64,000 nt of DNA from Flavobacteriales bacterium UBA1494 (GCA_905182175.1 CAJJAT010000026.1:1-64000), one strand, 5' to 3'. Positions 36,678-46,408 are shown, counted from the stretch's first letter. Translations and numbers: made by a program. The notes: a model not told the origin generated them from the sequence alone.

Positions 36678-38158
36678 ATGAATGAATGGCTAATTTCGTT
36701 GAGTGCAGTATCTTTAACTTCCTCATCCCAACAAATGCTATTTAACTCGGTAACCTTTTTATTATTTTTTACCGTTTTTTTTATCCTCTATTGGGCAGTC
36801 AACAATAAATTAAATGTTACGGCTCGAAATGCATTCACAATTGTTTCCAGTTACCTTTTTTATGGATGGTGGGACTGGAGATTTCTAAGTCTCATTGCTT
36901 TTAGCTCAGTAGTAGATTTTTCCATTGGGCTTGCCTTAAAAAAACAAGAAAAAAAAAGGCTTAGAAAAGTCTTATTGTATCTATCAGTTACTGTAAACCT
37001 AGGAATACTTGCAACATTCAAGTACTTTAATTTCTTTATTGAATCTCTAACTGAGTTTGCTCAACACTTTTCTGTACATCTTAATTCGAGTACTCTGAAC
37101 ATTGTACTACCGGTAGGAATTTCTTTTTACACTTTTCAAACGTTAAGTTATACTATAGATATTTATAGAAAGCGTTTAAACCCAACCCAAAATGTTATTT
37201 CGTTTTTTGCATTCGTTTCCTTTTTCCCTCAATTAGTTGCCGGACCAATTGAAAGAGCGAGTAATCTCTTAAGACAGTTCGAAGGTAAAAAGAAGTTCAA
37301 CTACAACCTATGCATTCAAGGACTGCGTTTAACCCTGTGGGGGTTATTTAAAAAAGTAGTTATTGCAGACAACTTTGGAGTGTTAGCAGACTCCCTTTTT
37401 GCAACAAGCGATTCCTATTCAGGAGTGTCAATTTTAGCAGGATCTTTGTTTTTTGCTTTGCAAATTTATGCTGATTTTTCTGGCTATTCTGATATAGCAA
37501 TTGGAATTTCAAAATGTCTAGGCTACGAGTTAAAAGCAAATTTCAGAACACCCTATTTTGCAAAATCATTGGATGAATTTTGGCAACGATGGCATATTTC
37601 GCTTTCTACATGGTTTAGAGATTATGTCTATATTCCTCTTGGAGGAAACCGGAAGAACCCATCTAGAGTGCACTTCAATATTTTTACAACATTCTTTTAT
37701 CAGTACTTTGGCACGGAGAAAATACTACATTCATTATTTGGGGAGTATTACACGGACTGGCGCTAATTACTGAAAAATTGATTCCTTTGAAACTAAACAA
37801 ATGGTTGGCTTGGCCTTTAGTGATGGGATTGGTTGTATTGTTTTGGATTCCTTTTCGGGCAGAAAGCACATCTCATTTGTTTGAGATGACAAGATCAATT
37901 ACAGACTTAAGCAGCTATTCAATTGGCACAATTTCAACTGCCATAGAAAGCTATTCTATGAATCGATTTGTTGCGTTAATAGTTGTTTCCATTTTATTCT
38001 TAGCGGTTGAATGGAATATGAACTTAGTAAATTTCAGTAATTGGATAGAGCAAAAAAGCAATCCTGTTAGAGTGATGAACTATTATGCTTTACTATTTTC
38101 AATTTTAATCCTTGGCAACTTTACCGTAAAACCGAGCTTTATATACTTCCAATTTTAA
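36678..38158 (+). pseudogene. MBOAT O-acyltransferase split by a one-base frameshift
   Basis: Two frame pieces (36678-37766 and 37778-38158) form one membrane-bound O-acyltransferase of the AlgI/DltB group. The natural start is probably the ATG at 36735 (MLFNSVTFLLFFTVFF), giving 474 residues, the normal length. Landmarks include FYGWWDWRF, VGISFYTFQTLSYTIDIYR, FPQLVAGPIERA, YADFSGYSDIAIG and FWQRWHISLSTWFRDYVYIP. In the first frame the protein ends wrongly after NIFTTFFYQYF. With one base added near 37692 it continues as LLSVLWHGENTTF, restoring the catalytic His in WHG. The downstream SGNH gene overlaps its stop (TAATG). The pair should transfer acyl groups to an exopolysaccharide or a lipid. 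Confidence 0.85.
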
Positions 38159-41422: not shown

Positions 41423-42583
41423 CTACTCAACTATCACTCTAGGTATCTCAGAGGGAAGACGGGTTAATAGCTCATAACTAGGAAGATTTCCGAGGTCGGA
41501 AAAAGAGCTTACCGAAATTTCTAAATCCCCCTGTTCACCTATCAAAACAACTTCATCTCCTAGGGCAATATCTTCTGCATTTGTAATGTTAACCGTTACT
41601 GCATTCATGTTGATAGTTCCAATTATATTGAGCCGCTGTCCTCTTATTAACACCTTTCCCAAGTTGCTTAGGTTTCTATCTAAACCTAGTGCATACCCCA
41701 CAGGAATAATTGCAATTTTCGTTGGGACATTCGTTAAGTACGAGGTTCCATAGCCTATAAATTCTCCTGATTTAACTTCTTTTATGTCCATAACGCTACT
41801 TTTCCAACTAAGCACTCTTTTAGGCTCTATTTCAATTTTATTTTCCTTGTTTCTATAGTTGATTAACGTTTCCATGTTGGGATAAAACCCATATTGCATA
41901 ATTCCAATTCTAACCATGTTGTGTATTGATTTTGGGTAGATTATTGCTGCGGCAGAGCAGGCACTATGAATTAATTTCGGCAATTGATTTTGCTTCTTTA
42001 ATAACATAAGGACTTCATTAAATTTTGATTGTTGCTTTTTTACTCTAGGATGATTCATAATACTTTCCGCTCCAGCAAAGTGAGTGCAAATTCCTTTTGC
42101 TTTTATGTACCGTTGGTTCGCCTGTATAAGCGAGAATACGTCATCCAACTCTGATATAGGAAAACCTGTCCGGTTCATCCCTGTCTCTATTTCAACATGA
42201 ACCAATGCTTTTTTATCAATTCTTTTTGCTATTTGAATAGCATCGGCTAATCGATTTTTTTCAAAAACAAAAAATTCCAATTGATTTTCTATAATCCATT
42301 CTAAATCTTTTCGGTCAATGTAGCCCATAATAAGAATATCAGCTTTTCCATTGGTCACTTTCCACACCCTATAGGCCTCATGGGCAGTATAGGTACAAAA
42401 TTGTTTTACTCCTGCCTCAAAAGAAACCTTGCAGTAAATTTCTATTCCGTGACCGTAAGCGTTTCCTTTAACAACAGATCCATACGTAACATCCTCTCCA
42501 ATAAGTTGTCTTACAAAATTGATATTATGAATGATAGCAGATTTGCTAATTTCTATTGTTAATGGTGGCTTAGGACTATTCAT
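41423..42583 (-). CDS. alr: Alanine racemase-like PLP enzyme
   Basis: The 386-residue fold-type III PLP enzyme has the Schiff-base lysine K39 in GSVVKGNAYGHG and HVEIETGMNRTGF (dimer/active-site segment). It also has SAAAIIYP, GIMQYGFYPN, the second-base region IGYGTSYLT with Tyr, and GTINMNAV (normally GxxxMDxx in Alr; Asp is replaced by Asn). The start overlaps the stop of the M20 gene by 8 bases. It would interconvert L- and D-alanine or a related amino acid. The Asn change and the operon partners suggest a special substrate and not the housekeeping Alr role. Confidence 0.8.
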   Translation of the reverse strand: MNSPKPPLTIEISKSAIIHNINFVRQLIGEDVTYGSVVKGNAYGHGIEIYCKVSFEAGVKQFCTYTAHEAYRVWKVTNGKADILIMGYIDRKDLEWIIENQLEFFVFEKNRLADAIQIAKRIDKKALVHVEIETGMNRTGFPISELDDVFSLIQANQRYIKAKGICTHFAGAESIMNHPRVKKQQSKFNEVLMLLKKQNQLPKLIHSACSAAAIIYPKSIHNMVRIGIMQYGFYPNMETLINYRNKENKIEIEPKRVLSWKSSVMDIKEVKSGEFIGYGTSYLTNVPTKIAIIPVGYALGLDRNLSNLGKVLIRGQRLNIIGTINMNAVTVNITNAEDIALGDEVVLIGEQGDLEISVSSFSDLGNLPSYELLTRLPSEIPRVIVE

Positions 42584-43712
42584 GAATTTCCTTAATTATT
42601 TGACTGAATATTTCGATACCCGTTAGGATGATTTCGTCGGGAAAGTCATAATCAGTTGTGTGCAGAGCAGGAGTCTCTTCTCCAGCTCCCAGTCCAAACA
42701 TTGCTCCGTCGTATTTATGCGTAAATAAGCCAAAGTCTTCGCCCCATTTAAAGGGAGTCTCTAATTTTGATACAGATAAGTTTGAACGCTCTGCAACTTT
42801 CGATATGAGTTCAATGGCTTTTTTACTGTTACTACTGGAATTAAATTCTTGTGTCCAACTAATGGCCACCTCTAATTCTTCCGCGCTGCACACTTCGTTG
42901 ATGTATTTTTCAAAACCCTTGCATTTTCGGCTCAGCAACTTTTTATCCCAAGCCCTCATTGTAAAATGAACCTCTCCAAGACCTGCTGAAACCCCATACC
43001 CTTCTTCGCCTATATGAGAATGAACTGCAGTAATTACAAAAAATGCAGGATCAATAGATTTGTTGTTGACATGCCGGTTTGCTTCTAGAATAATTTTAGC
43101 AATAGCAACAGAAGGGTTTTGACCCATTTCAGGTTCAGCTGCATGAGCAGTTTTGCCCGTTAGCTTAACCGTCAAACTAATTACGTTTGCAGTAAAAACG
43201 CCCTCTTTTATTACTATTTCCTTTAATGGAAAACCAGGTAAATTATGAAGTGCGAAGACTTGATTGACGACAAGGCGTTTAAAAAAGGAATGAGCCAAGG
43301 CTGATTTCGCACCCTCTCCGTTTTCTTCTGCAGGTTGAAATAATAAAATCACTTTACCTCTACTAATTGGATTTTCAGACAAGTTTTGTGCCACCCCAAG
43401 CAAAATTGTAGTGTGACCATCATGACCACATTTATGCGAAACATTCGCTATTACAGAGCGGTACTCAAAGTTGTTTTCTTCTTGTATCGGAAGTGCATCA
43501 ATATCTGCTCTGAAAAGTGTCGTTTCCCCTGCCTTTTCACTTTCAAAAACTGCAACTACTCCTGTGTTGCTAATTTTAAGCACCTCATTTGCTTTTGTCT
43601 TTTTAAGGTTATTATAAATGTATTCAGCTGTTCTAAACTCTTGACCAGATAATTCTGGATTGGTGTGTAAATACTTTCTTATTCGTATTAATTCATCTAT
43701 TTGTTTCAGCAT
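42576..43712 (-). CDS. M20 family amidohydrolase (aminoacylase-like)
   Basis: The 378-residue zinc hydrolase belongs to the M20D/IAA-amino acid hydrolase group. Metal ligands are visible in CGHDGHT (95-101), FQPAEENGEGA (125-135) and FALHNLPGFPL, and a dimerisation domain includes GKTAHAAEPEMGQNPSVAI. GLGAGEETPALHTTDYDFPDE near the C-terminus carries the last ligand. Members remove acyl groups from N-acyl amino acids or peptides. It is the third gene of the operon, 2 bases after the racemase-like gene and overlapping the alr-like gene. Deacylating a D- or L-N-acetyl amino acid is plausible. Confidence 0.87.
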   Translation of the reverse strand: MLKQIDELIRIRKYLHTNPELSGQEFRTAEYIYNNLKKTKANEVLKISNTGVVAVFESEKAGETTLFRADIDALPIQEENNFEYRSVIANVSHKCGHDGHTTILLGVAQNLSENPISRGKVILLFQPAEENGEGAKSALAHSFFKRLVVNQVFALHNLPGFPLKEIVIKEGVFTANVISLTVKLTGKTAHAAEPEMGQNPSVAIAKIILEANRHVNNKSIDPAFFVITAVHSHIGEEGYGVSAGLGEVHFTMRAWDKKLLSRKCKGFEKYINEVCSAEELEVAISWTQEFNSSSNSKKAIELISKVAERSNLSVSKLETPFKWGEDFGLFTHKYDGAMFGLGAGEETPALHTTDYDFPDEIILTGIEIFSQIIKEIHE

Positions 43713-43714
43713 GC

Positions 43715-44785
43715 TTAAACCACAACTTTTTCTATGTAATTTGAACTCAAGAGTGCTAATGCCCCCATGTATTTCAAATCAAAGGAAATTAAGTCTCCGA
43801 CTTTATAGTCAAGATCAGTCTCTCCTAAATCTACGACAATCATGTCTGAACTAGCGCCGATAAAGGATATTTTCGAATCGACAGGAATTAAGAAGTCTGT
43901 GGATATATCTAAAAGTCCGATGTCAATGATAGCTCTAAATGACAATTTCCCGTAATCCTTTTCGTCAATTTCAAAGGTTTCTCCTGAAGGGTTTTCTGCA
44001 ATTTGCCCATTTGGTATTTTCGGTTTCTCCGTAATCTCAATAATCTCAGAATAGAGTTTCAGCACTCCTTCCTGCATACCTTTAAAAGGTACTTCATTAA
44101 TGATGTCATTTCCAAAAAACAGGGTATCCCCTATTCTAAAATGATTCACTCCTTCAGGAACCTGCTGGTAATTTAACATTGGAAGAATTACAGAGGTTCC
44201 ACCAGAGACCCACGGTATTTTTTTGTTAAAAGTTGCTTCTATCAATTGCTCGTATAAGCTTAACTGAATCAGCTTATCTTCAGACGGTAAAACACCGTTT
44301 AGACAATTCAAATTGGTTCCAATTCCCGACACCTCTATATTTGGCAATTCAAAAACAGACCGGTAAAAGTCTATCAAATGTTCTCCAAGAACACCTTCCC
44401 TCAAATCCCCCATTTCTATCATAATTATGACCTTATGCACTTTCTCCTGCAGTTGGGCCTCTTTTGATAAAAGTTTGATTGTTTCTAACTCTGTATTAAA
44501 GCTAACGTCTGCGTATTTTACAATATTTTTTATACTCCTTTTTGCAGGTGGCTTGATGTAAACAGTTTGCACATCGGGATTCATCGCTTTAATGGTTTTC
44601 AAATTGCTAATTCTCGAATCACAAACCTCTTTAATGCCTAAGTCTAGTAGCTCTTTTAAGTAAATTTTATTTCCACAGAATAATTTTGTTACTACACTCC
44701 AACTTTTACCATGCGTTTTCATTAGATGATCTAAAAAATGGTAATTGTGCTTTAATCTTTTCCTATCAAGTTCTATAAATGCCAT
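43715..44785 (-). CDS. Ornithine/alanine racemase-like PLP enzyme
   Basis: The 356-residue protein belongs to the alanine/ornithine racemase family (Orr/YhfX-like, N-terminal Ala_racemase domain). It starts MAFIELDRKRLKHNYHFLDH. The PLP lysine is K34 in SWSVVTKLFCGN, followed by EVCDSRISNL. VIIMIEMGDLREGVL, GIGTNLNCLNGVLPS and VSGGTSVILP are the phosphate- and substrate-binding segments. GVNHFRIGDTLFFGN follows. Known members racemise ornithine or lysine. It is the second gene of a tight operon, 2 bases after the GNAT gene and 2 before the M20 gene. The operon order suggests a D-amino-acid pathway, but the substrate is not known. Confidence 0.85.
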   Translation of the reverse strand: MAFIELDRKRLKHNYHFLDHLMKTHGKSWSVVTKLFCGNKIYLKELLDLGIKEVCDSRISNLKTIKAMNPDVQTVYIKPPAKRSIKNIVKYADVSFNTELETIKLLSKEAQLQEKVHKVIIMIEMGDLREGVLGEHLIDFYRSVFELPNIEVSGIGTNLNCLNGVLPSEDKLIQLSLYEQLIEATFNKKIPWVSGGTSVILPMLNYQQVPEGVNHFRIGDTLFFGNDIINEVPFKGMQEGVLKLYSEIIEITEKPKIPNGQIAENPSGETFEIDEKDYGKLSFRAIIDIGLLDISTDFLIPVDSKISFIGASSDMIVVDLGETDLDYKVGDLISFDLKYMGALALLSSNYIEKVVV

Positions 44786-44787
44786 AT

Positions 44788-45237
44788 TTATTTAGACGAT
44801 CTTCTTTGTAACCTCATTTCTGAGTATTTATTTTCAAAGCCCATTTTATTGTATAAGAAAATTGCGGGGTTATTAGGCTCGACATGCAACGCAATATCTC
44901 CTTTTGTGAATTTAATTGCGTTTTTCATTAGCTCTTTGCCAATTCCACTACCTCTGTGCCCACTATGAACCGCAATGTAAACCAATATATTTTCAGGAAT
45001 GTACTTCGCCATTCCTGTCTCATTGATTACCACAGCACCTATAATAATATTTTCATCTAATTGAAGAATGATAGTCCCTCCCGGCTTAAGAGGGTCAAAG
45101 ACATATTCTAGTGCGAGTAATATATCAGACTTACTGTCTCCATACTCTTCAAGGTGTTCGTGCAAAAAATCAGCAATGACACTATTTGAATGATGAAGGT
45201 CTTTTCCGGTAAACTTTGTTAATAATTTATACTCCAT
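44788..45237 (-). CDS. GNAT family N-acetyltransferase
   Basis: The 149-residue acetyltransferase has the GNAT core. ILVYIAVHSGHRGSGIGKELM (about 90-110) gives the acetyl-CoA pyrophosphate-binding loop R/Q-x-x-G-x-G/A as HRGSGIG. It ends in LHVEPNNPAIFLYNKMGFENK. It is the first gene of the four-gene operon. A promoter should lie in the 121 bases to the small unknown gene at 45359. In the operon it may acetylate the same amino acid that the M20 enzyme deacetylates, or a different step; that is inference. Confidence 0.87.
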   Translation of the reverse strand: MEYKLLTKFTGKDLHHSNSVIADFLHEHLEEYGDSKSDILLALEYVFDPLKPGGTIILQLDENIIIGAVVINETGMAKYIPENILVYIAVHSGHRGSGIGKELMKNAIKFTKGDIALHVEPNNPAIFLYNKMGFENKYSEMRLQRRSSK

Positions 45238-45928: not shown

Positions 45929-46408
45929 TTAATTAGAAGACATTGGCTCTTCCATAGTAATTAGTGGAGAAGCTTCAATACTTTGAATTTCTAGTGACTT
46001 CACTAACGTTTCTAATCCCCTTTTTACCTCTCGTACTTTTGCTTCGCTAAGCTGAGAAAGTTTAACATTTAACCTATCGTGGAGTAAGCCATGTGATGCT
46101 GCAAGTAATTTTATACCCTCTTGGCTTAATGAAACGTAAGTTGTTCTCTTATCTCCTACTTTCGGTAAACGATTCAAAAGCTTCTTTTTTTCTAACCTGC
46201 TAATAATACCGGTGACCGTACTTCTGTTAAGGTGTAAAAAAAGAGTGATCTCTTTTTGGGTTGCAGTGAGGTCCTCTTTTTTATTTAAGTAATCCAAACA
46301 CAACAATTGAGGAATACTTATTCCCATTGTCTTTTGAATTCGTTTTGACTCTAAATTGATAGATCGAACAATTTTTCGGATATCAATTAATATTTCTGTG
46401 TAGTCCAT
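45929..46408 (-). CDS. MarR family transcriptional regulator
   Basis: The 159-residue protein has the winged helix-turn-helix of MarR regulators: QLLCLDYLNKKEDLTATQKEITLFLHLNRSTVTGIISRLEKKKLLNRL (about 34-81), then KVGDKRTTYVSLSQEGIKLL as wing and helix. It should act as a dimer on a palindrome in its own promoter region. The effector is unknown. Upstream on its left are the small unknown gene and the racemase operon on the same strand; it may regulate them, which is inference. Confidence 0.92.
   Translation of the reverse strand: MDYTEILIDIRKIVRSINLESKRIQKTMGISIPQLLCLDYLNKKEDLTATQKEITLFLHLNRSTVTGIISRLEKKKLLNRLPKVGDKRTTYVSLSQEGIKLLAASHGLLHDRLNVKLSQLSEAKVREVKRGLETLVKSLEIQSIEASPLITMEEPMSSN

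Follow-up and report, generated by a model that had tools for sequence, protein, structure and literature searches.

A recurring Bacteroidota operon joining an acetyltransferase, an ornithine-racemase-like enzyme, and a modified alanine racemase

Introduction

Why should one bacterial operon encode two different pyridoxal phosphate (PLP)-dependent racemases together with an acetyltransferase and an amidohydrolase? The question is raised by a locus in the window, the whole 64,000-nucleotide stretch of Flavobacteriales bacterium UBA1494 DNA that was analyzed (GCA_905182175.1 CAJJAT010000026.1:1-64000). Very little is established, to our knowledge, about what D-ornithine and D-lysine do in free-living Bacteroidota. 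A sequence-only reading of the window had proposed a pathway that makes or recycles a D-amino acid through acetylated intermediates. Here, gene families, active-site residues, and gene neighborhoods were compared across Bacteroidota genomes.

A four-gene operon built from known families

The four genes lie on the minus strand with intergenic gaps of 2, 2, and -8 bases (Table 1). The sequence-only reading had described these genes, their families, and their spacing correctly: the coordinates are exact, and Pfam and NCBIfam agree. The GNAT protein contains the Acetyltransf_1/7 domains (49 bits for PF00583) and the acetyl-CoA-binding motif R-G-x-G-x-G/A, in which R95, G96, G98, and G100 are invariant in the alignment; a search of solved structures returned generic GNATs only. 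The M20 protein matches Peptidase_M20 in Pfam and TIGR01891 at 224.5 bits (cut-off 153.75), and its metal-site residues (CGHDGH, EE, H156, and H351) are invariant in an alignment of 10 operon members. The last gene encodes a modified alanine-racemase-family enzyme, here called Alr*, with both Ala_racemase domains (PF01168 and PF00842).

Table 1 Positions of the operon genes, their neighbors, and related features at other loci
Feature	Coordinates	Strand	Remarks
GNAT N-acetyltransferase, 149 aa	44788..45237	-	First gene; PF00583/PF13508
Orr-like fold-type III PLP racemase, 356 aa	43715..44785	-	NF040742; PLP lysine K34
M20-family amidohydrolase, 378 aa	42576..43712	-	TIGR01891; presumed N-acetyl (diamino) acid deacylase
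Alr*, modified alanine-racemase-family enzyme, 386 aa	41423..42583	-	E131, N325-M-N327
MarR-family regulator	45929..46408	-	Upstream of the operon, same strand; Pfam MarR
Small protein, 124 aa	41015..41389	-	33 bp downstream of Alr*
MBOAT-type O-acyltransferase frame	36678-38158		Broken across two frames
Paralogous small protein, 121 aa	45359-45724		
Paralogous small protein, 128 aa	51787-52173		
Protein with M23-like domain	L192:10907-11503, L117:8068-8796		Between Orr and M20
DUF1611 gene and related Orr-like gene	L038:6442-9256, L037:6820-9644		Overlapping
ATP-grasp/x/Alr* trio	L265:10294-14710, L266:5500-10453, L267:5750-10473, L268:5792-10299, L166:3784-8268		

Two neighbors may belong with the operon. 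The MarR-family protein is probably the regulator of the cassette, and a MarR homologue adjoins it at 12 of 143 loci. The small protein downstream of Alr*, which had no match in Pfam or NCBIfam, is a possible extra member, with homologues adjoining the cassette at loci L053, L060, L062, L065, and L071. Elsewhere in the window, two paralogous small proteins are encoded on opposite strands about 6 kb apart, around slipin/stress-protein genes; the 121-aa one had no match in Pfam or NCBIfam. The MBOAT-type frame is broken near its catalytic-His region and is either a pseudogene or carries a sequencing error.

The operon recurs across Bacteroidota around a GNAT-Orr core

Conservation was followed in a phylum-wide sample of 392 Bacteroidota genomes and in a set of 143 distinct Orr loci, for which all counts are raw and ignore kinship between genomes. 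First, the Orr-like gene and the GNAT gene were each found in 69 of the 392 genomes, and 67 genomes had both. The operon-type Alr clade occurred in 47 genomes, and all 47 also held Orr, even where Alr* was located elsewhere in the genome. Second, GNAT adjoined Orr at 127 of the 143 loci, and M20 and Alr formed an adjacent pair at 63. The operon is thus conserved, contrary to one of the two outcomes that the sequence-only reading had named as counting against it; the other, enzymes confined to alanine racemization in housekeeping roles, has likewise not been encountered so far. A PutP-like sodium/solute symporter (SSS) was present at 86 loci. Third, the most frequent layout was GNAT-Orr alone (28 loci), without a listed symporter or hydrolase. 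Finally, gene order varied, with Orr in second place, in last place, or before SSS; the association therefore survives rearrangement. The operon is thus a real, recurring Bacteroidota unit whose arrangement is beyond chance, with GNAT-Orr as the core and M20-Alr as an accessory pair.

The distribution is patchy: 20 of 60 relatives have the Orr-like gene, yet it is missing from each of the five congeneric genomes besides the window genome. In a scan of named genomes that yielded 578 relatives, the best 80 of the 578 were nearly all from Bacteroidota. Named type strains exist for several hosts (Lutibacter, Algoriphagus, Flavobacterium, and Pontibacter). The operon is a metabolic module nearly confined to this phylum. 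Since the cassette is found in about one in six sampled genomes, a widespread metabolite or route for nitrogen may have escaped notice. One clade has an extra gene separating Orr from M20, whose product carries an M23-like domain; at L192 this product aligns with a portion of PRK06148 (114.8 bits, under the cut-off).

Gene context favors ornithine as a candidate substrate

The Orr-like protein contains an Ala_racemase_N domain and scores 324.5 bits against the ornithine racemase family NF040742 (racem_Orr), below the curated cut-off of 480, as do the other cassette members (260 to 332 bits); it therefore represents a new subfamily. Like the clostridial ornithine racemase Orr, it is a short fold-type III racemase, and the match is full length (residues 4 to 354 of 356). 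Unlike the clostridial enzyme, it is partnered by a GNAT, and no ornithine aminomutase genes were seen with it. The PLP lysine K34 is invariant in the alignment. The AF2 model (pLDDT 91.6) resembles Alr, Bar, and Lys racemases (Z scores of 27 to 28) and, more broadly, fold-type III enzymes (24 to 28); the search of solved structures gave weak Alr matches only. A predicted ornithine racemase has also been mentioned for Halocola ammonii (PMC12838360).

About four independent context links connect the operon to ornithine or lysine. A good example is the Lutibacter flavus locus, which reads MarR-GNAT-SSS-M20-Alr-ArgB-ArgD-ArgC-ArgJ-Orr; a second Bacteroidota genome has GNAT-SSS-Orr-ATPgrasp-x-Alr-ArgB-ArgD-ArgC-ArgJ. 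The embedded ArgBDCJ genes are an extra set, because both genomes also keep an ordinary arg operon that includes separate ArgB, ArgC, and ArgD genes. ArgJ releases free ornithine. Since the usual Bacteroidota arginine route passes through acylated ornithine, an additional set whose last member is ArgJ would serve specifically to supply free ornithine. Genes for ornithine aminotransferase (673.8 bits against a cut-off of 378) and lysine 6-aminotransferase (686.8 bits against 521) diverge from the operon in one family-level clade. The Pontibacter copies adjoin the arg operon, and in one genome a second Alr* copy follows ArgBDCJ-ATPgrasp-x.

Because of this recurrent linkage to ArgBDCJ, to the two aminotransferases, and to the arg operon, ornithine is the best-supported substrate; gene context favors it, with lysine second, and it is ornithine that the Orr-like enzyme would racemize. 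Only physical linkage counts here, since ArgJ was not enriched genome-wide: it was found in 26 of 69 genomes with Orr versus 115 of 323 others, and it was rejected as a genome-wide partner of Orr. ArgJ was not found in the window genome, and arg genes were not detected near the operon at the close-relative loci of the window's family. A diaminopimelate route was rejected, there being no dap genes in the cassette.

A tentative pathway and its two main rivals

The order and direction of the reactions are matters of inference. In the pathway that we propose, the Orr-like enzyme would interconvert L- and D-ornithine, and the GNAT would acetylate the D-form, pulling the equilibrium toward an N-acetyl-D-diamino acid. 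M20-Alr*, joined at some loci by the sodium symporter, would then recover or import the product: M20 would strip the acyl group, and Alr* would turn the freed or side-chain-acetylated amino acid into the L-form. PLP racemases require a free alpha-amine, and an alpha-N-acetyl compound is therefore no direct substrate for either racemase; the GNAT and M20 must thus act before or after racemization or on the side-chain nitrogen, which for the acetylation means a step later than racemization or one at the side chain. A diamino-acid module of this kind, most likely for ornithine, in which the D-form comes from Orr, is trapped by GNAT, and is recycled by M20-Alr*, is the reading we lean toward, although it stops a little short of being probable. 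Against it stand the missing genome-wide enrichment of ArgJ, its lack in the window genome, the lack of detected arg genes at the close-relative loci, and the sub-cut-off score of the Orr-like protein. In addition, two racemases for one substrate are awkward, and the aminotransferase neighbors, seen in one clade only, fit breakdown equally well.

Breakdown is the basis of the closest rival, catabolic salvage, which we consider rather unlikely but a serious contender. The symporter would bring in D-ornithine or D-lysine, free or N-acylated, that derives from dead cells; M20 would deacylate the acylated forms, both racemases would work from D to L, and aminotransferases would lead to glutamate semialdehyde, with the GNAT guarding against D-amino acid excess. 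The symporter at more than half of the loci and the adjoining ornithine and lysine aminotransferases agree with this. So do the Lutibacter copies, which come after what appear, as judged by eye, to be hydroxyproline-breakdown genes, and a related Orr-like gene that is linked to the gene of a VanX-like D,D-dipeptidase at loci L037 and L038. However, ornithine-synthesis genes inside the operon make no sense for salvage, the acetyltransferase is nearly obligate, and the loci with GNAT-Orr alone have neither a listed symporter nor a listed hydrolase. These loci, for which no importer is listed, fit a self-contained making step. Synthesis rather than degradation is also favored by the biosynthetic genes inside the operon and by its two-gene core.

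Alternatively, Orr and GNAT could build an acetylated diamino acid osmolyte that is re-imported by SSS and degraded by M20 and Alr*, which we regard as improbable. Ectoine clusters join making, uptake, and breakdown, and the same split would apply here. The M20 protein resembles the Nalpha-acetyl-DAB deacetylase DoeB2 (NF038260), at 197.7 bits and thus under the cut-off of 550; MscS channels are encoded downstream of Orr at L107 and upstream at L022; and many of the named genomes come from hosts of saline habitats. In addition, the bacterium Salinibacter ruber is known to contain small amounts of N-acetyl-lysine as a solute (PMC4685198). However, the MscS links are few, and Flavobacterium species that are not restricted to saline habitats carry the operon too. 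For the proposed D-amino acid pathway, then, what stands is the conservation of the operon, the divergence of its alanine racemase (below), and ornithine as the substrate best supported by context; its reactions keep the tentative standing given above.

The operon alanine racemase has an altered active site

Alr* forms a clade separate from the housekeeping Alr enzymes of the same genomes (support, 100/100). Four otherwise conserved positions have changed; canonical positions follow the Bst residue numbering. First, at the position of the carbamylated lysine, the 69 operon copies have Glu (54), His (10), or Gln (5). Second and third, N-M-N replaces C-M-D in 69 of 69 copies (Cys311 to Asn and Asp313 to Asn). 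Fourth, Asp285 is mostly His. The Asn-for-Asp change noticed earlier in the window is real (N327 in GTINMN) and recurs in every operon copy. Like canonical alanine racemase in family and domains, Alr* retains K39, Y43, R138, H168, Y278, and M326, and the PLP lysine, the catalytic tyrosine, and the carboxylate-binding arginine are kept in all 69 copies. By comparison, 9 of 15 housekeeping Alr proteins from the same genomes retain K and C-M-D, and two more have K and S-M-D. The AlphaFold model of Alr* is poor (pLDDT 65).

In MtAlr, Asp322 is equivalent to GsAlr Asp313; it forms a pair with Asp285 and with a conserved Arg, and it contacts the substrate carboxylate via a water (PMC10288493). It is very unlikely that the operon feeds peptidoglycan D-alanine, with Alr* as a backup racemase for alanine or one that tolerates D-cycloserine. 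Alr* does exceed the TIGR00492 alr cut-off (292.4 versus 168 bits), and its Asp-to-Asn change coincides with MtAlr D322N, a substitution that confers D-cycloserine resistance (PMC10288493). However, the window genome holds a separate canonical Alr, four conserved positions are changed, and all 47 genomes with the clade also hold Orr. Alr* does not serve as a housekeeping enzyme. The active-site changes and the separate canonical Alr make a substrate other than alanine likely. The N-M-N motif could thus serve as a marker for enzymes automatically labeled "alanine racemase" that probably are not, and Alr* is a natural case of the Asp-to-Asn change linked to D-cycloserine resistance.

A second Alr* copy also occurs in a conserved trio with an ATP-grasp ligase and a protein of about 640 to 680 aa (Table 1), seen so far solely in genomes that also hold the GNAT-Orr cassette. 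The ATP-grasp protein resembles an L-amino acid ligase; its large partner has no confident Pfam match and contains an invariant NPTCQSAR motif. At L265, the trio directly follows ArgBDCJ. The trio resembles a biosynthetic unit, not described before, that would draw on ornithine.

Comparison with known systems

A search of the open-access literature on D-ornithine, ornithine racemase (including Bacteroidetes), and DUF1611, with subscription papers outside its scope, gave no description of the operon. Each part is from a known family; neither their combination nor the Orr subfamily nor the Alr* clade turned up in the literature searched. Taken as a whole, the parts could form a new Bacteroidota pathway for making and recycling a D-diamino acid in N-acetylated form, with D-ornithine as the probable one, built on a new Orr subfamily and a new non-alanine Alr branch (N-M-N, no carbamyl-lysine), with an ornithine-using ATP-grasp/Alr* sister branch for a further product; this construction is rather doubtful.

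Beyond the clostridial Orr and canonical alanine racemase, three systems come close. In the lysine (dap) operon of Salinicoccus/Staphylococcus, an M20 hydrolase lies beside an Alr-family gene, a pair matched to N-acetyl-DAP deacetylase and DAP epimerase (PMC4685198). That is likewise a diamino acid operon, whereas the operon described here lacks dap genes and has GNAT and Orr-like partners. The staphyloferrin A racemase is PLP dependent and serves a D-ornithine product (PMC7857480), as proposed here; a staphyloferrin-type siderophore was rejected, with no siderophore synthetase recognized among the annotated neighbors. The third, the DgcN-DgcA pathway for D-glutamate, also couples an N-acetyltransferase to amino acid racemization. 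It consists of a DUF1611 N-acetyltransferase and a racemase that is a non-PLP epimerase, whereas the operon has a GNAT and a PLP racemase, and the substrate suggested is basic rather than acidic. The dgcN gene has been described as the key gene of an irreversible racemization pathway for acidic D-amino acids (PMC12363236).

DUF1611 was rejected as a member of the window operon, where Pfam did not detect it, and was seen only at the divergent loci L037 and L038, where a DgcN-type gene overlaps the related Orr-like gene (Table 1). These DUF1611-linked relatives score 381 to 409 bits against NF040742, above the operon protein. The VanX-like gene follows the Orr-like gene at L038 and is fused to it at L037, and the L038 pair occupies the same slipin/AraC-type site as the window operon.
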